From Halobacteriovorax sp. (lineage in GTDB: Bacteria; Bdellovibrionota; Bacteriovoracia; Bacteriovoracales; Bacteriovoracaceae): DNA of 64,000 nt. The translations under genes were made by a program, and so were the position numbers. Location of the stretch: the NCBI GenBank assembly GCA_002720865.1, contig PBIO01000031.1, positions 124,001-188,000 of the forward strand, in the 5' to 3' direction. This document shows, in pieces, positions 16,974-25,198 of this stretch. The notes under the pieces are model-generated. The model saw nothing but the letters and a program-made list of their open reading frames with translations. It ran no database searches and had not been told where the DNA came from. Numbering within the stretch: position 1 is the first letter of the stretch; each line of letters opens with the position of its first letter.

Positions 16974-17975
16974 TTATTCCTCAGGAAGCATAGGATTCAT
17001 GACCATAAACCAAAGCTTTGGAATGGTGGCCAAAAGTAACATGCCTGGATAGCCCGTAGGAAATTGAGGACTATTATCAAAATGCCTAAGAACTTGATAA
17101 GGTCTGTCAGCATTAGCATGGTGATCCGAATGGCGTGATAGTTCAAATAAAAGCATTCGGCTGAGTGGATGATTGGAGTTCCAAGAATGCTCAGGTCCCA
17201 CTTTTTCATAGCGTCCATTTGGCTTAAGCTTTCGCCTAAGTCCATAATGCTCGATGTAATTGACGCCCTCAATTAAGAGCCCCCCTCCTATTGCTGCCCC
17301 TACAAATGCAATTGCTGGTAGGCTTCCGAGAAAGAAGGCGATGAGAGCTACTATAATTATTTCTATGGCCAAGTACTGAAGAGTTTTTATGGGCTCTACT
17401 CTATAGGCCGTTTTAAAACTTCTATAAAAACTTCTGCTAAGAAACTTATACAAGTTTATCCCTTTTTCAGCCGAGGCATGATCGAGGGGAGTTGCCACAT
17501 TTTTATGATGATTTTTATTATGCTCGATTAAAAAATGCATATATAGAGTTGTGCTAAGTAAAGTGAGAGACATGAATTTATTATGAGCCCCTTTTCTATG
17601 ACCAAGCTCGTGGGCAAGGTTACTTCCTAGAGCAGCATTGACAAGAACCATTGAGGCCATTTTGCCGATTAAAAAGAAGAGTGGAAGTTCAGCTCCAAAT
17701 TTCCATATGCTCCAGAGAAAATAGGCCACAAGACTTAGGTGAACCACAAACATTAAATAAAGAACTCCGTCGTAATAAGGCTTAGCTTGCAATTCTTTTT
17801 CCGTTTGAGCCTCGAGGTTCCTATCAGATCCTTTTAAAAAGAGTTCTACCAATGGGATTAAACCAAAGAGGAAAAGAACCCCGAACCAGGACATATAAGC
17901 TTCAGCTTTCAGCGATATAAAGACTGATAGTGGAAGGGCAAAAGAAAAGAGGTATTTATATTTCTCTATTTTCAT
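16974..17975 (-). CDS. AlkB-type integral-membrane alkane/fatty-acyl monooxygenase
   Basis: 333 residues with several membrane helices and the His boxes of the di-iron hydroxylase family: HELGH (122-126), EHNKNHH (151-157), a NYIEHYGL motif at about 245, and RHSDHHA (281-287). NYIEHYGL is the hallmark of alkane 1-monooxygenase. These enzymes insert oxygen at terminal methyl groups using O2 and reduced rubredoxin; no rubredoxin gene is nearby. It is shorter than typical AlkB (about 400). In a predator the substrate may be prey or own lipid chains rather than alkanes (inference). It is divergent from a TetR gene across a perfect inverted repeat. Confidence 0.88.
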   Translation of the reverse strand: MKIEKYKYLFSFALPLSVFISLKAEAYMSWFGVLFLFGLIPLVELFLKGSDRNLEAQTEKELQAKPYYDGVLYLMFVVHLSLVAYFLWSIWKFGAELPLFFLIGKMASMVLVNAALGSNLAHELGHRKGAHNKFMSLTLLSTTLYMHFLIEHNKNHHKNVATPLDHASAEKGINLYKFLSRSFYRSFKTAYRVEPIKTLQYLAIEIIIVALIAFFLGSLPAIAFVGAAIGGGLLIEGVNYIEHYGLRRKLKPNGRYEKVGPEHSWNSNHPLSRMLLFELSRHSDHHANADRPYQVLRHFDNSPQFPTGYPGMLLLATIPKLWFMVMNPMLPEE

Positions 17976-18049: not shown

Positions 18050-18649
18050 ATGGGAAGAAAGGCAGGAAATAAAGGTGTGGACCTTGAGCATGACTACCGA
18101 ATGACTTGGGCCATGGAGCTTTGGCCATATTTTAAGCAGCATGGTTTAAAAGGCTTTAATATGAACGAGGTTGCTAAAACTTTAGGAAAAAGTAAAACCA
18201 CTGTTTATAAATACTTTCAAACTAGAGAAGATATTTTAGAGCTTATTTTATCCAAAGTTCTTTTAGACCTATCAGCCTTTGAAGAAATCTTATTAGATAA
18301 AAAACAAAATTATATCGAACGTTACGAACAGGCTATTGAAGTTCTTTCTGTTTCTTTAGGAGGAATCTCAACTAGTTTTTTACTTGATTTAAAACGCTAT
18401 CACCCAAAGCTTTGGGAAAGCATTAACGGCTTTAAGCTCTACTCTCTAGGTGTTTTAAAGAGCTTTTATAGGGAAGGAAAACGAAAAAAAATCCTGGGAA
18501 ACACTAGTGTTGAGCTACTTGTTACTGGAGATGAGATTTTTTTGAGTGCACTCTTAGAGCCAGAGTTTTTACATAAAAATAAGATAAGTCTGGAGTCTGG
18601 GCTACGTGCTTATTTTGAAAACAAAATGTTTGGAATGCTTAAAAGATGA
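18050..18649 (+). CDS. TetR-family transcriptional regulator
   Basis: 199 residues. The helix-turn-helix is at about residues 17-62 (GLKGFNMNEVAKTLGKSKTTVYKYFQTREDIL), the standard TetR DNA-binding domain. The C-terminal ligand domain is not assignable. The ATG at 18050 follows AAGGACTGAA. By position it should regulate the divergent AlkB-type hydroxylase and HD-GYP pair, and itself, through the 34-base inverted repeat. The ligand could be a fatty acid or alkane-like molecule (inference). The 197 bases after it contain nothing recognisable. Confidence 0.9.
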   Translation: MGRKAGNKGVDLEHDYRMTWAMELWPYFKQHGLKGFNMNEVAKTLGKSKTTVYKYFQTREDILELILSKVLLDLSAFEEILLDKKQNYIERYEQAIEVLSVSLGGISTSFLLDLKRYHPKLWESINGFKLYSLGVLKSFYREGKRKKILGNTSVELLVTGDEIFLSALLEPEFLHKNKISLESGLRAYFENKMFGMLKR

Positions 18650-18846: not shown

Positions 18847-19551
18847 TTATTTGGCCGGCCGACCATTTGGGTAGGCGTATTTTCCGCTCATGGCAAGCTC
18901 AATAAGCTTTATAAATTCTTTTCCTTGAGGGGTGCCTTTTACTCTTTCAGCTTCATTTCGAATGGCCGCGAGAGATTTTTTAACATCTTTGATCATTGTC
19001 TTTTTAAAAAGTCCCGCTAGAAAACTTTTTGGGTTAATAAAACTTCTATACTTAAAAATCGTTTTATCATCTTGTGGATAAAATTCCGCAAAGCCTTTAA
19101 CTATATCAGCGGAATTAGACTCGATCATTTTCCAATCAACCCTAAAAATATCGAATTTATTTTTCTTAAGAACTGTGGCGTGAATATACTTACTATTACT
19201 AAGAGGCCAGGGCATTTCCATTTCATAGGCCGTATGAATTTCAACCGGAGAAACCTGTTTGATGACATCGGATTTTATTAATCCTGGAACATAATTCTTT
19301 TGATGTTCGTAGGCGATAAAAAGTGCCAGAGTTTCTAGGGGGCTTGCCTTAACGCTAAAGTAAATTGTTAACTCAGGCCAAGCAGACTTATTGATATTCT
19401 TTTTCTTTACGACAAAGCCTCTATTTCGAAGAGTCTTAAAATCCTTCTTTGAAAAAACACGGGCCATCTCTTCAGTAATTGGGCTTACAAGTCCCTGTGA
19501 AAATGCCGGATAAATTGTAAAACTAACTATTAGCGCAATCAGTAATTTCAT
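18847..19551 (-). CDS. exported START/SRPBCC-like protein
   Basis: 234 residues from the ATG at 19551, which puts a signal peptide (MKLLIALIVSFTIYPAFSQG) at the N-terminus; an upstream in-frame start would spoil it. The body shows the START-like pattern: WPELTIYFSVKASPLETLALFIAYEHQKNYVPGLIKS, VEIHTAYEMEMPWPLSNSKYI and WKMIES. START domains form a cavity that carries lipids or other hydrophobic ligands. An exported version may shuttle lipid in the periplasm. It sits next to lipid-hydroxylase and sphingolipid-type genes, which supports a lipid role by context only. Confidence 0.7.
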   Translation of the reverse strand: MKLLIALIVSFTIYPAFSQGLVSPITEEMARVFSKKDFKTLRNRGFVVKKKNINKSAWPELTIYFSVKASPLETLALFIAYEHQKNYVPGLIKSDVIKQVSPVEIHTAYEMEMPWPLSNSKYIHATVLKKNKFDIFRVDWKMIESNSADIVKGFAEFYPQDDKTIFKYRSFINPKSFLAGLFKKTMIKDVKKSLAAIRNEAERVKGTPQGKEFIKLIELAMSGKYAYPNGRPAK

Positions 19552-19659
19552 AGACCTATCATAGGGAAATGACTCTTCTTTGGCACCCTTAAAATCAGCT
19601 AGAAACATAGACAACTAGTGATTTTTAGGATAACTTGCCGCAATAATTCGGAGTCAAAT

Positions 19660-20274
19660 ATGAAGCATTACGATTCGATTCGTATCTTTAAAAATCCTAT
19701 TCTTGAATGGTGCACTCATGTTCATCCTATAATCCCATTATTGATGTGGGCCCCTGTGGTCTTATTCTTAGGTTATAGGGGAGTTAGTGTTTATGAATAC
19801 TCCGGAATAGAGTGGATTGGTTTAGCGGTCAGTGGGCTTCTTGTGTGGACCTGGACGGAGTACTCCTTGCATCGTTGGGTTTTTCATTGGAACTCTAAAA
19901 CAAAACTAGGTCAGCGCTTTGTGTTTTTGTTTCATGGTCTTCATCATGATGATCCAGACGACCCAACTCGATTAGTTATGCCTCCAGTTCCTGCCATTCT
20001 CATCATGAGCTTACTTTATTTTTTCTTTGGGCTTTTTATTCCAGGAAATTATATTGAAGGATTTATGGCCTTCTTTATCATTGGCTATTTATGTTATGAC
20101 TATATCCACTATGCTACTCATCACTTTCCTATGACTTCGAGGCTAGGAAGATATTTGAGAAAATTTCACTTACAACATCATAACTCTAAAGAAGAATCAA
20201 AATACGGAGTTAGTAATCCTCTCTGGGATTATATTCTAGGTACAGTGACAGGTCCCAAAAAAGATAGACGCTAA
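19660..20274 (+). CDS. fatty acid / sphingoid hydroxylase (FA2H-like)
   Basis: 204 residues from the ATG at 19660 (CGGAG six bases upstream). Three or four membrane helices frame the di-iron His clusters: HRWVFH (71-76), HGLHH (92-96), HYATHH (150-155) and HLQHH (170-174). The EYSLHRWVFHW and FHGLHHDDPDDPTRLV pattern is that of the fatty acid 2-hydroxylase / Scs7 branch rather than plain sterol desaturases. Such enzymes hydroxylate the acyl chain or the sphingoid base of ceramides. The serine palmitoyltransferase-like operon lies within 6 kb, so ceramide is the likely substrate (inference). It is coupled to the PAP2 gene by an ATGA overlap. Confidence 0.85.
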   Translation: MKHYDSIRIFKNPILEWCTHVHPIIPLLMWAPVVLFLGYRGVSVYEYSGIEWIGLAVSGLLVWTWTEYSLHRWVFHWNSKTKLGQRFVFLFHGLHHDDPDDPTRLVMPPVPAILIMSLLYFFFGLFIPGNYIEGFMAFFIIGYLCYDYIHYATHHFPMTSRLGRYLRKFHLQHHNSKEESKYGVSNPLWDYILGTVTGPKKDRR

Positions 20275-21077
20275 TGATTTATAAAACCCTTCTCATTCTA
20301 ATTTTTAGTTTCGGCCTAAACGCCAGTGAAAATAAGGCACCAAGTGGTGATGGCTGGACGGATACCAAAACAACTATCAACTGGATGCTTAAAGCCTCCT
20401 ATATGCAGTTTACTGTTCAAAATAATATTTATTATGGGGCAGTAGGGGCTGCTGCGAGCTGGTACTCTTTTGAGCACGATGACCGTATTGCCGCTCTAAC
20501 TCAGTCTAAAGAAATTAAGAATATCGTCGACCATGTTGGTGATGCCGGAGTCTTTTTTAATTTTCCTTTTGCTGCCATGGGGGCTTGGTATTACGGAAAG
20601 AAATCCGGCAATACACATCTGATGCAATTTATGATGGAGTATGCCTCGGCCATGTACCTTACACTGGCTGAAAGTGGGCTCTTTAGTTATATTCAAATTC
20701 ATAAGAGACCTAGTCCTCATAATATTAGTTTTTGGGAAAAAGAGTTTCGCGGAGACAGTTCGTGGCCATCAGGTCATATTGTCCCATACTCAGCTCTCTT
20801 TTTTAAAACACTACAGTTTTACGGTCCCGGATGGGCCATGATTCCTTTGGGTTTGACAGTCATGTCCGGTCTTCAGCGTATGCAAGATGGAAAACATTAT
20901 CTTTCTGATATTGTTGGGGCCTTCTTTTTATCTGCCCTTGCCTCAGAAGGTGTTAGAAAAGTGGCCGGTTATCATAATAACCATAAGTTTTATAAACGCT
21001 GGCTTGAGCACGACGTAAAGCTTGGGATGCTTAGGTATAAAAAAGCTTACGGACCTCTTATAAGTTTTAGCTATTAG
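20274..21077 (+). CDS. PAP2-family lipid phosphatase
   Basis: 267 residues with a signal-like N-terminus (MIYKTLLILIFSFGLNAS) and several hydrophobic helices. The three acid-phosphatase motifs are present: HKRPSPHN (motif 1), WPSGH (motif 2) and LQRMQDGKHYLSD (motif 3, R-x5-H-x3-D). PAP2 enzymes remove phosphate or exchange head groups on lipid phosphates, with the active site outside the inner membrane. Coupled to the hydroxylase and convergent with the ceramide-type operon, it could act on ceramide-phosphate or a polyprenyl phosphate (inference). Its stop shares the TA with the convergent stop (21074-21077). Confidence 0.88.
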   Translation: MIYKTLLILIFSFGLNASENKAPSGDGWTDTKTTINWMLKASYMQFTVQNNIYYGAVGAAASWYSFEHDDRIAALTQSKEIKNIVDHVGDAGVFFNFPFAAMGAWYYGKKSGNTHLMQFMMEYASAMYLTLAESGLFSYIQIHKRPSPHNISFWEKEFRGDSSWPSGHIVPYSALFFKTLQFYGPGWAMIPLGLTVMSGLQRMQDGKHYLSDIVGAFFLSALASEGVRKVAGYHNNHKFYKRWLEHDVKLGMLRYKKAYGPLISFSY

Positions 21078-21877
21078 TTTAGAAAAAGCTTGTTTTGAAT
21101 CAAGTACTCCATAACATGATCGGCAATTTCTTTATGACCCTCTTTATTAGGATGCCAATTATCTTTAGACATTAACTGATCAGCGTTTTTATTCTTTTGC
21201 AGGTCAATAAGGTGTAGATTTTGTTCTTGTGAAACCTTAAAGAGTAGCTCATTAACTACCTTAGGTGATTTATAGTAATTTATCATCACAGCAGGGACAC
21301 TATACTTTTTTAAGAGCCTAATAACCTCAAGGTAATTGGGCATAGTATTTTGTAAATATTCCTGATTAGTAAATGAATCCTTGGCGTCAGGATCATAGAA
21401 AATAAATTCTCCATGATCACCTTCATGAATCTTTTCTTGAAAATTAAAATACAGATAAGAAAAATAAATTAATTTTAATAGTTTTATCTTAGTAAAAAAT
21501 GAAAGATGGGAAATGGGGTTTAAGGCCGGGTTTATATCGTTAACACCAAAATGCAAGATGGCAAAACGAGGCTTATATTTAAGGAGATTAAGCTCTAAAT
21601 TATCCAGAATTGAAAAGCTGGTTTGTCCCGGATAAGAAAGGTTTATAACCTCAAATTTTTTATCTTGATGTATTTTATTCAAGTTTTTTTGAATTAAGTT
21701 TGGATAGCTCATGGTAAGTCTATTTGGAAGCATCAAACCATAGCTAGTCGATTCACCAAGCACGAGGATGTGATTGGTCCCTTTGTTTAAAATCTTTTTT
21801 TTAGTTTTGTTCCTTACAAAATAACCGGTGCCGTGAAGGGAGAGTTCCATAAAGGCCAAAATGCAAAAGAGAACCAT
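21074..21877 (-). CDS. membrane-anchored SGNH/GDSL-type hydrolase
   Basis: 267 residues. An N-terminal hydrophobic segment (1-20) is probably a signal anchor. The SGNH blocks are visible: VLGESTSYG with Ser43 in place of the usual GDS, LSYPG, GVND (111-114, block III Asn), and DNWHPNKEGH with Asp239 and His242 completing the triad. The family contains esterases and acyl or acetyl hydrolases acting on lipids and glycans. It is the last gene of the SPT-acyltransferase-SDR operon, 11 bases after the SDR gene, so it may trim or modify the sphingolipid product (inference). Confidence 0.8.
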   Translation of the reverse strand: MVLFCILAFMELSLHGTGYFVRNKTKKKILNKGTNHILVLGESTSYGLMLPNRLTMSYPNLIQKNLNKIHQDKKFEVINLSYPGQTSFSILDNLELNLLKYKPRFAILHFGVNDINPALNPISHLSFFTKIKLLKLIYFSYLYFNFQEKIHEGDHGEFIFYDPDAKDSFTNQEYLQNTMPNYLEVIRLLKKYSVPAVMINYYKSPKVVNELLFKVSQEQNLHLIDLQKNKNADQLMSKDNWHPNKEGHKEIADHVMEYLIQNKLFLN

Positions 21878-21888
21878 AAAGAACTTTT

Positions 21889-22869
21889 TTATAGCCAGCC
21901 TCTTTTCTTATAATCATTTAACGTTTCTTCAACAATCTTTTCTATATCCCATTTATAAACTTGTCCCAACTGCTTGGTCGACTTTTCTGCTGAACAGGTC
22001 CAGGCTTTAGGAATAATTTCATTAATCTTGTCTGGAGTAAGCCTAACTGTTTTCGGCTTTTTTAGGGCGATAACTTTCGTTGCAAATTTGATCGGTGAAA
22101 TTGGTAGTGGGATAATTAAAGGTTTCTTTTTATTAAGCTTACTCGCAATTACCGAAAGCAGTTCTTTGAACTCTATGGCCTTTGGAAAAGCGCTAAAATA
22201 AACCTCTAGGCCTTCCTTATCATTTTCAAGACAAAGCTTGATTGACTCTACAAGATCAAAAACTCCAACAAAGCTATAAATTTTCTTGCCGCCTTTTCTA
22301 CCAAGGGAAGGTACTATGCCTTTTTTAACCATCTTAAACACGTCGAGGACTGCAGGATCTCTTGGTCCGATTACCATAGGCGGTCTTATTATTGATTTTT
22401 GCCAAGATTTAGGGGCTTCATTTGTTAAAATTCTTTCAGCTGCAAGTTTAGACTTTCCATAAACGCTGACTGGCTCTGGGACCTGATCTTCAGTTTGATA
22501 CCTCTTTGAGGGACCTGCTGCTGCTAGAGAAGAAATTAATATAAACTTTAGCTTGGTATACTTAAAAGAGAGGTCTTCAATTAACTGTCTAGTTGATTCC
22601 GTATTGACTGTATAAAAACTTCTATCTTCAAATGAGTGAACAATTCCAGCTGCGTGAACGACAGCATCCAAATCGATTGGTAGCTCAGCAACCCAGTCGT
22701 GGCTTTTTGTTGAATTTAGGCTTCCTCTTATTAAAGTCCCTTTAACATCAAATTCTTTGGCCTTATCAGGGGAGCGAACAAGAGAGTAAACTTCATGACC
22801 GCTCCTATGTAATAAATCAGATAGGTGGGAGCCTACAAATCCGGTGGCACCTGTAATCAGTATTTTCAT
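21889..22869 (-). CDS. cerR: SDR-family reductase, probable ceramide reductase
   Basis: 326 residues of the extended SDR family: GATGFVG (7-13) binds NAD(P), an HAAG motif follows at 72-75, a SSLAAAGP segment at 113-120, and the catalytic pair is Tyr137 / Lys141 (SVYGKSK). In Caulobacter an SDR of this extended kind (CerR) reduces the 3-keto group of N-acylated 3-ketosphinganine to give dihydroceramide. The assignment here rests on family and on position directly after an SPT-like and a bCerS-like gene, whose stop overlaps its start. Without that context it would be called only an NAD-dependent epimerase. Confidence 0.7.
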   Translation of the reverse strand: MKILITGATGFVGSHLSDLLHRSGHEVYSLVRSPDKAKEFDVKGTLIRGSLNSTKSHDWVAELPIDLDAVVHAAGIVHSFEDRSFYTVNTESTRQLIEDLSFKYTKLKFILISSLAAAGPSKRYQTEDQVPEPVSVYGKSKLAAERILTNEAPKSWQKSIIRPPMVIGPRDPAVLDVFKMVKKGIVPSLGRKGGKKIYSFVGVFDLVESIKLCLENDKEGLEVYFSAFPKAIEFKELLSVIASKLNKKKPLIIPLPISPIKFATKVIALKKPKTVRLTPDKINEIIPKAWTCSAEKSTKQLGQVYKWDIEKIVEETLNDYKKRGWL

Positions 22870-23978
22870 AAATTCTTTTCGAAAACTCGGTAGCGCTTAT
22901 AAACCTTTCCACCCATAAGCTCTAAGGGTTTACACATTTCCAAATTATCTTCAAGCACCCAGCTCATTTCTACTTCATTATAACCACAGGCCACAATATT
23001 ATCCTGGAGCTGTCTATACATAACAGCAGCTAGACCCATCTTGCGATACTTTGGCTTTAATCCAAGTGTAATCACACGGCAGCGCTTAACGTATTTCTTC
23101 ATATTGAGCAGCTTAAAAATACCTGTAGGAAAGAGTTTTCCTGACGGATTGTGTGCTAAGACCTGATTGACATCCGGAAGGCATACAGCGAATCCTACGA
23201 CCTCTCCGTCAACCTCGGCCATCAGGATAAGCCTTTCATCGATTACAGACTTTAGGTCTTTTGCCGTATGAAAGAACTCATTATCAGTCATAGGAACAAA
23301 GCCCCAGTTCTTTTCCCAGGCGTCGTTATAAATCTCATGCATTCTTAGAACTTCATTATCCCAGTCTTTCTTTTTAACTGTTCTAAACTTAACACGGCTT
23401 TTTTGAAGAATTCTGTCCGAAACCCGAACCACTTTTTCTGGCATCTCAAAAGGGACCATCACTTTGTAAGCGATAAGATCTTTTGCTTTTTTATAACCAT
23501 TTTTCTCAATAAGATCGAGGTGGTACTTGGGGTTATAGGTCATCATGATTTGAGGTGGGTCCTCAAATCCTTCAACCAATGTTCCTACTTCGTAATTTGT
23601 TGAAGGGTTCATTGGCCCCATGACCTTTGTCATGCCTTCTTCCTTAAGCCATTTTTCTGCCGTTTCAAAAAGAGTATGGGCAATAAAGTCATCATTGATG
23701 GTCTCAAAGAAACCGAAGAAGCCTACTTGCTCACCTTGGTATTTATTGTAGTGATCGTTGACCACCGCAACCACGCGGCCAACCTCTTCTCCCTTATCAA
23801 GGGCCAGCCATGATTTAGTTCGGCTAGTTTCGTAAAAAGGATGTTTTGGGTTAAAGATGTCTTTTAGGGCCATCTTCAGCGGGGCGATCCAGTTAGGGTC
23901 GTTTTTATATAATTTCCACGGAAGATTTAATAAAGCATTCAAATCTTTTTTATTTTTTACTTCCTTAATTTCTACCAT
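22866..23978 (-). CDS. YghO/bCerS-type N-acyltransferase, probable bacterial ceramide synthase
   Basis: 370 residues of a GNAT-related family. Visible landmarks are FYxTSRTKSWLAL, GRVVAVVNDHYN, GFFGFFETIND, MGPMNPSTNYEVGTLVEGFEDPPQIMMTYNP and KAKDLIAY. Near the C-terminus comes the acyl-CoA loop LGLKPKYRKMGLA. This architecture is that of E. coli YghO and of the Caulobacter bacterial ceramide synthase, which N-acylates 3-ketosphinganine. It sits between an SPT-like and an SDR gene, overlapping the latter by four bases; that order supports the ceramide role. The family is broader than ceramide synthesis, so function remains an inference. Confidence 0.72.
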   Translation of the reverse strand: MVEIKEVKNKKDLNALLNLPWKLYKNDPNWIAPLKMALKDIFNPKHPFYETSRTKSWLALDKGEEVGRVVAVVNDHYNKYQGEQVGFFGFFETINDDFIAHTLFETAEKWLKEEGMTKVMGPMNPSTNYEVGTLVEGFEDPPQIMMTYNPKYHLDLIEKNGYKKAKDLIAYKVMVPFEMPEKVVRVSDRILQKSRVKFRTVKKKDWDNEVLRMHEIYNDAWEKNWGFVPMTDNEFFHTAKDLKSVIDERLILMAEVDGEVVGFAVCLPDVNQVLAHNPSGKLFPTGIFKLLNMKKYVKRCRVITLGLKPKYRKMGLAAVMYRQLQDNIVACGYNEVEMSWVLEDNLEMCKPLELMGGKVYKRYRVFEKNL

Positions 23979-23992
23979 TGTATTCCTCTTTC

Positions 23993-25198
23993 TTAGTGAA
24001 GACGGTGACCAGTAGGAATATCTAATTCCTTTTTGGCCATGGCAAAGACTTCAAGAACGCGGTCTAAATGAGCTTGAGTATGACTGGCCATATAGCTGGT
24101 TCTGATAAGAGCTTCGCCTTTTGGCACGGCCGGAGAAATCACTGGAGTTGCGAAAACACCATTTTCTTTTAAAAATTGAGTCACTTGCATGGCCTTTAAG
24201 TCATCACCAATAAATACCGGAACAATCGGCGTCTCAGAGTTATAAGTATAAAAACCAAGTTCTTTAAAACCTTTTTGAATAAATTCTACGTTTTTCCAAA
24301 GGGCCTCGTGAATTGAATTATCTTTTTCACAGAGATCGATACAAGCAGAAACTGTTGCTACTGCAGAAGGTGCCATAGAGGCAGAGAACATAAAACTTCT
24401 GGCCGTGTGGCGAACATAGTCCATGGCCTCATGGGTTCCTGAAATGACCCCACCAATGGAAGCGAAAGATTTAGAAAAAGTTCCCATATTAAAATCGACT
24501 TTTTCGGTAACTCCAAAATGATTCATAGTCCCACGACCACGGTCACCCATAACGCCAATTCCATGGGCATCGTCAACGTAAACCATAGCGCCATATTTCT
24601 CGGCTAAAGCGATTACTTGGTCTAGCTTAAGAACATCACCAGTCATTGAGAAAACTCCGTCAGCAACAATAGTGACTCGGTTAAACCTATTAATATTTGA
24701 GGCCAGTTGTTCCTCAAGGGATTCCATATCATTATGCTTCCACTTGAAAGTTGGTCCTAAGGCCAATCGACTAGCGTCAATAATTGAAGCGTGGTTCTCA
24801 CTATCAAAAAGCATACAATCCTTTGGACCGCAAAGAGCTGCTAGAGCCCCAAGGTTTGTTTGCATACCTGTTGAAAAGACAATGGCCGCTTCGTGACCTA
24901 AATACTTAGCAAGCTTTACTTCAAGTTCTTCATGAATTGTTAAATTTCCATTTAAAAATCTAGAGCCAGTACAACCAGTACCAAATTTTTCAATGGCCTT
25001 AATGGCATGCTCTTGAACATAGGGGTGGTGAGTTAGTCCTAGGTAATTGTTTGATCCGATCATGACCATATCAATTCCGTCATGAGTAATGGTCGTTCCG
25101 TCACTAGCTTCAATGGCCCTAAAGAATGGGTAAAGATTATTTTCTCTAAGCATGTTCGCAGTATCTAAAATGCGATGTGAAAAAGTAGAATTACCCAT
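23993..25198 (-). CDS. spt: serine palmitoyltransferase-like alpha-oxoamine synthase
   Basis: PLP-dependent condensing enzyme, 401 residues from the ATG at 25198 (GGGGA seven bases upstream). A longer frame would add 19 residues with no binding site. Motifs: SNNYLGL, GTGCTGSRFLNGN (72-84), SENHASIID with the PLP-stacking His136, HNDM (155-158), DDAHG (209-213) and GTFSKSFASIGG with the Schiff-base Lys243. HNDM and GTFSKSFAS favour serine palmitoyltransferase over AONS or KBL, which share the fold. The reaction would condense serine with a long acyl-CoA or acyl-ACP to 3-ketosphinganine, the first step of sphingolipid synthesis. First gene of a four-gene operon. Confidence 0.8.
   Translation of the reverse strand: MGNSTFSHRILDTANMLRENNLYPFFRAIEASDGTTITHDGIDMVMIGSNNYLGLTHHPYVQEHAIKAIEKFGTGCTGSRFLNGNLTIHEELEVKLAKYLGHEAAIVFSTGMQTNLGALAALCGPKDCMLFDSENHASIIDASRLALGPTFKWKHNDMESLEEQLASNINRFNRVTIVADGVFSMTGDVLKLDQVIALAEKYGAMVYVDDAHGIGVMGDRGRGTMNHFGVTEKVDFNMGTFSKSFASIGGVISGTHEAMDYVRHTARSFMFSASMAPSAVATVSACIDLCEKDNSIHEALWKNVEFIQKGFKELGFYTYNSETPIVPVFIGDDLKAMQVTQFLKENGVFATPVISPAVPKGEALIRTSYMASHTQAHLDRVLEVFAMAKKELDIPTGHRLH

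Follow-up and report, generated by a model that had tools for sequence, protein, structure and literature searches.

The stretch of DNA analysed here (the window) comprises 64,000 nucleotides of a Halobacteriovorax sp. genome, positions 124001-188000 of contig PBIO01000031.1 in assembly GCA_002720865.1 (contig C31 of genome G000). The locus in question is a putative ceramide (sphingolipid) locus and occupies positions 18847-25198 of the window. It contains seven open reading frames (ORFs), whose positions and orientation agree with a preliminary description of this DNA (Table 1). Four adjacent genes lie on the minus strand: a serine palmitoyltransferase (SPT)-type synthase, the candidate ceramide synthase bCerS, a short-chain dehydrogenase/reductase (SDR) and an SGNH hydrolase. 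They are separated by 14, -4 and 11 bp, and this spacing indicates that they form one operon. The FA2H-type hydroxylase and the PAP2 phosphatase form a plus-strand pair with a 1 bp overlap, and PAP2 and SGNH are convergent with a 4-bp overlap. The arrangement recurs in dozens of genomes and is therefore not due to chance. The window genome has a size of 4.9 Mb, a completeness of 100% and a contamination of 4.4%. Its closest named relatives are two Halobacteriovorax metagenome-assembled genomes, and when genome contigs were scanned with the window SPT, two congeners gave the only matches.

Table 1. Genes and other features of the putative ceramide locus and its left flank (positions are those of the window)
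Feature	Position	Strand	Remark
SPT, serine palmitoyltransferase-type alpha-oxoamine synthase	23993-25198	minus	from likely ATG; ORF open to 25255
bCerS, YghO-type N-acyltransferase (candidate ceramide synthase)	22866-23978	minus	
CerR-like extended SDR (candidate 3-oxo-ceramide reductase)	21889-22869	minus	
SGNH/GDSL hydrolase	21074-21877	minus	
PAP2-superfamily phosphatase	20274-21077	plus	N-terminal signal-like segment
FA2H/Scs7-type di-metal hydroxylase	19660-20274	plus	start common to homologues; ORF open from 19618
START/FA2H intergenic stretch	19552-19659		108 bp between likely starts; genes divergent
Exported protein, predicted START (helix-grip) fold	18847-19551	minus	ORF open to 19614
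TetR regulator	18050-18649	plus	divergent from AlkB homologue
AlkB alkane 1-monooxygenase homologue	16974-17975	minus	adjoins the locus in this genus

The first gene was matched by the Pfam model Aminotran_1_2 (9.4e-54). Its top matches in the PDB were the Sphingobacterium SPT structures 8guh and 3a2b (366 bits), ahead of an entry named AONS/KBL (298 bits) and the cysteate C-fatty acyltransferase 28eh (247 bits). The Sphingomonas SPT scored only 249 bits, so bit scores alone are not decisive. The top NCBIfam model was SPT_CFB (NF047600) at 485 bits (484.8), against 378 for bioF and under the curated cut-off of 640. In a tree whose only two non-SPT references were the long-branched E. coli Kbl and BioF, the window SPT family, the SPTs of ceramide loci and the Sphingobacterium SPT grouped together (100/99), apart from these references. 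The motif NMGTFSKSFAS is present in the window protein; GTFSKS is common to SPTs and is lacking in E. coli Kbl and BioF. The eight best PF00155 loci of the window genome included no further oxoamine synthase.

The bCerS protein aligned over its full length with the YghO proteins of Rubrobacter, Pseudomonas veronii, Aureispira, Roseomonas and E. coli (34-38% identity, 232-273 bits), all five of which are encoded in loci carrying an SPT. The SDR (Pfam Epimerase, 4.4e-26) reached 87-130 bits with the SDRs that are encoded next to SPT/bCerS in Aureispira, Rubrobacter, E. coli and P. veronii, compared with at most 51 bits with any SDR of the PDB, and its GxxGxxG and YxxxK motifs are invariant among homologues. 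The CerR assignment was made by comparison with these SDRs of other ceramide loci. The trio stands together in unrelated bacteria. Sequence comparison thus supports the assignment of the three genes to an SPT-bCerS-CerR type ceramide set, as the preliminary description had claimed, and their best matches were proteins of other ceramide loci rather than KBL or BioF. This core is in itself of an already known kind. A second bCerS-like gene, which has no adjoining SPT, was observed at L061 (G016:C35).

The hydroxylase was matched by Pfam FA_hydroxylase (6.7e-20). In the PDB sequence search, the sole match was the yeast ceramide 2-hydroxylase Scs7p (7e-24), with all His motifs aligned. The HX4H, HX2HH, HX3HH and HX2HH histidines of the di-metal site are present and do not vary among 35 homologues. 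The structure model (pLDDT 81) matched Scs7p with a TM score of 0.75, and the next match was not significant. These matches bear out the earlier assignment to the Scs7/FA2H type and point to the acyl C2 as the most likely place of the hydroxyl. The protein has about 204-205 aa and consists of the hydroxylase domain alone, with no N-terminal cytochrome b5 domain. The cytochrome b5 domain is typical of the animal and yeast FA2H and is absent from the plant enzymes. Among bacteria, the acyl hydroxylases reported for the sphingolipids of Sphingomonas are P450s, and myxobacteria are known to have FA2H homologues (PMC10002949). The PF00487 protein to the left of the locus was weighed as a possible DesA hydroxylase of the Caulobacter type and ruled out, as it is an alkane 1-monooxygenase (PDB 8f6t, 8e-69).

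The exported protein carries a signal-like N-terminus (MKLLIALIVSFTIYPAFS). Its AlphaFold2 model (pLDDT 90.5) has a helix-grip fold, for which Foldseek returned the StAR-related lipid transfer protein 3qsz (3e-10) and human CERT START domains (from 6e-8). The many CERT entries reflect the many CERT structures that exist, and ligand specificity does not follow from them. The window protein was assigned to no Pfam family; the Pfam START and Polyketide_cyc2 models gave no match to it and one among 28 homologues (0.0045), and the profile search reached 3qsz only at 0.12; the START assignment therefore rests on structure. The START-like character of this protein, as described before, is thus upheld by a predicted fold. 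Outside the order, START homologues adjoin a conserved multi-pass membrane protein, EI24/CysZ-like by eye (L168, L169, L171, L173), and bCerS is encoded elsewhere in 11 of 15 such genomes.

The phosphatase was matched by Pfam PAP2 (3.9e-8). Its PSGH and RX5HX3D motifs are invariant; the KX6RP motif is not present in full, as the RP is kept and the Lys is replaced by an invariant Ser. The SGNH hydrolase (Pfam Lipase_GDSL_2, 1.3e-12) has the GES, GVND and DNWH motifs. It occurs in two of the three species of one genus (G000 and G037); G038, also of this genus, lacks it, as do all other genera and loci. Because of this limited occurrence it probably falls outside the conserved unit, and the earlier view of it as a tailoring gene was not borne out. 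It is lineage-specific.

Conservation within the order was determined in 129 genomes, all of one family, taken as Bacteriovoracaceae. Informative loci (n = 46) were those in which the sequence extended 5.5 kb or more past bCerS, and neighbours were counted within 7 kb of bCerS. FA2H was near bCerS in 36 of the 46 loci (16 of 23 genera), START in 29 (13 genera) and PAP2 in 28 (12 genera). On the left, conservation stops abruptly at START, as the gene beyond it belongs to 16 different families across the 29 loci. In G020 (L075) FA2H lies within the SDR-bCerS-SPT operon, and in G073 and G063 (L119, L120) START and PAP2 are adjacent though away from SPT.

The same genes co-occur with SPT. With orthologues called by bit score (at least 280 for FA2H and 190 for START), FA2H was present in 51 of the 68 genomes with SPT and 3 of the 61 without, START in 40 and 3, and PAP2 in 41 and 2, respectively (Fisher p 1e-11 to 2e-17, from counts that ignore phylogeny). 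Three apparent exceptions (G012, G052, G108) are contigs ending inside the locus. Outside the order, FA2H was found in 33 of 69 genomes with bCerS and 6 of 171 without it; linkage of FA2H to ceramide genes was not found there. The placing of hydroxylase, PAP2 and START beside the core in the preliminary description thus holds in other genomes of the order and agrees with their co-occurrence with SPT. No description of this conserved set beside a ceramide core was found in the literature library searched.

We believe that this is probably a ceramide locus with its own acyl-chain hydroxylase, yielding 2-hydroxy-ceramide. SPT would make 3-ketodihydrosphingosine by condensing serine and a fatty acyl thioester, bCerS would N-acylate this product, and the SDR would reduce the 3-oxo group to give dihydroceramide. 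The membrane-bound FA2H would then hydroxylate this lipid, the most likely site being C2 of its N-acyl chain. PAP2 would most likely act on a lipid phosphate at the periplasmic side, and the exported START protein would most likely bind the lipid in the periplasm, either as ceramide or as finished sphingolipid, and aid its carriage to the outer membrane. It is possible, and we propose it only tentatively, that the START protein is a periplasmic ceramide/sphingolipid carrier, a bacterial counterpart of CERT that brings the hydroxylated lipid from the inner membrane to the outer one, and that START-FA2H-PAP2-SDR-bCerS-SPT form a complete unit that makes, modifies and delivers the lipid.

Several observations weigh against this reading and favour other explanations. 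The window SPT lies under the NCBIfam cut-off (485 against 640 bits), and in the PDB search the Sphingomonas SPT (249 bits) ranked behind the entry named AONS/KBL (298 bits). The co-occurrence counts, taken as they are regardless of phylogeny, include 17 SPT genomes without FA2H and 28 without START, and in families f22-f27, where bCerS is near-universal, no extra association of FA2H or START was found. The right flank (PilZ, PepN) is as conserved as the left part of the locus, so right-hand synteny is uninformative and part of the linkage is general synteny. START-like paralogues of 142-170 bits occur in g36 genomes (L135, L136 and others) with no SPT match, which indicates another role for the wider START family, and outside the order START stands beside other genes. 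These points agree with the view that the trio makes ceramide while PAP2 and START owe their place beside it to chromosomal inertia and have general lipid or envelope functions. We consider this somewhat unlikely, since the conserved region ends sharply at START, the START and PAP2 orthologues are nearly absent from SPT-less genomes, and the two genes have moved jointly (L119, L120). The hydroxylase might instead target C4 of the long-chain base, as Sur2 does, giving a phytosphingosine-type ceramide. Sur2, whose substrates are ceramide precursors, is a member of the same FA_hydroxylase superfamily, and the sphingolipids of B. stolpii contain phytosphingosine as well as alpha-hydroxy fatty acids. 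Scs7p was the only structure of the superfamily found, so the PDB searches cannot tell Scs7 from Sur2 and do not separate C2 from C4. The C4 position is unlikely in our view, as both sequence and fold match the 2-hydroxylase Scs7p, though no Sur2 structure competed.

The remaining doubts concern the core enzymes. An oxoamine synthase using another amino acid (cysteate, leading to a sulfonolipid, or alanine or glycine, leading to 1-deoxy bases) would make a ceramide-like lipid and not ceramide. A cysteate enzyme is indeed among the PDB matches and the window SPT stays below the curated SPT cut-off, yet the Sphingobacterium SPT matches 119 bits better, bCerS and a CerR-like SDR adjoin, and an SPT has been characterised in the relative B. 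stolpii (PMC6148460), so this substrate change is very unlikely. It is harder still to believe that the first gene is a KBL or BioF enzyme and that the second, as a YghO relative, has nothing to do with ceramide. Oxoamine synthases are all similar, and E. coli Kbl matches the window protein at 34%; against this stand the 100/99 grouping in the tree, the GTFSKS signature and the full-length match of bCerS to the YghO proteins of ceramide loci. The ceramide locus with an acyl-chain hydroxylase remains our preferred reading.

As to the head group, Watanabe 2001 is reportedly the source for the sphingophosphonolipids of B. stolpii. This organism has a characterised SPT and sphingolipids (PMC6148460), which bear hydroxy-aminoethylphosphonate (PMC6148460; PMC12366243). 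No match to phosphoenolpyruvate (PEP) mutase (PF13714) was found in the window genome, which is complete, so a phosphonate head group of the B. stolpii type, to which the preliminary description had pointed, is ruled out for this strain. The four CDP-alcohol phosphatidyltransferases of the genome look PgsA/PssA-like by context and are dissimilar to the transferase of the phosphonate cluster of relatives. A PEP-mutase/nucleotidyltransferase fusion occurs in 19 genomes of relatives, all 19 of which have SPT, in a cluster separate from the ceramide locus. The genes of this cluster (L101, L103-L110, L116) encode, in order, a TauD dioxygenase, a nucleotidyltransferase, a CDP-alcohol phosphatidyltransferase, a LysE-type protein, the PepM/NTP-transferase fusion, the phosphonopyruvate decarboxylase Ppd and an aminoethylphosphonate transaminase. 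The top NCBIfam match of its TauD-family dioxygenase is the phosphonate dioxygenase TmpA, far under the cut-off. The cluster looks like a candidate (1-hydroxy)aminoethylphosphonate head-group pathway for B. stolpii-type sphingolipids.

According to PMC11087976, no flippase and no lipid transporter has been identified for the sphingolipids of bacteria. An exported protein with a START fold is a specific candidate transporter when, as here, its gene keeps its place next to ceramide genes and genomes that lack these genes have hardly any close orthologue of it. An FA2H-type hydroxylase tied to bacterial ceramide genes would make hydroxylation at C2 or C4 genetically testable and would be relevant to how the eukaryotic enzyme evolved. 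Acyl hydroxylation is reported to affect polymyxin sensitivity in Caulobacter (PMC11324152). Because the set is conserved across the family, it can be tested as one unit for ceramide production, modification and perhaps transport.

The ceramide/phosphosphingolipid cluster of Caulobacter crescentus (PMC11087976, PMC11324152) likewise has SPT, bCerS and CerR-type genes, with the same proposed order of steps. The window core differs in having no adjacent dedicated acyl carrier protein (ACP), acyl-ACP synthetase, LptFG2 or head-group genes, and PAP2 and START are extra. The acyl hydroxylase of Caulobacter is the DesA-family CC_0202, encoded elsewhere (PMC11324152), whereas that of the window is of the Scs7/FA2H type and lies beside the core. 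Rubrobacter (L144) has the same trio in the identical order SPT-bCerS-SDR, with no FA2H or PAP2; an annotated SRPBCC gene downstream of it has no detectable similarity to the window START. FA2H and PAP2 are also absent from the same trio in P. veronii (L141) and from the E. coli YghO locus (L145), which holds SPT, ACP, SDR, a fatty acyl-AMP ligase and YghO. B. stolpii is a related organism with ceramide lipids and differs from the window strain in its phosphonate head group. On a Roseomonas mucosa plasmid (L143:11192-13125), a 'sterol desaturase family' FA_hydroxylase gene overlaps bCerS, as a hydroxylase-family gene accompanies bCerS in the window, and the adjacent extras are head-group genes, for a CDP-alcohol phosphatidyltransferase and a diacylglycerol kinase, and LptFG. 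This hydroxylase shares 27% identity with the window FA2H (E 3e-10), and its linkage to ceramide genes is apparently independent or very distant. Yeast Scs7p, mammalian FA2H and the myxobacterial FA2H homologues (PMC10002949) have the same di-metal His motifs and fold as the window enzyme, which differs in its length of about 205 aa, in lacking a cytochrome b5 domain and in being encoded beside ceramide synthesis genes. The START domain of CERT and the Xanthomonas StAR-related protein 3qsz resemble the window START protein in its predicted helix-grip fold, whereas the window protein is exported, has no PH domain and shares 11-17% identity with them.

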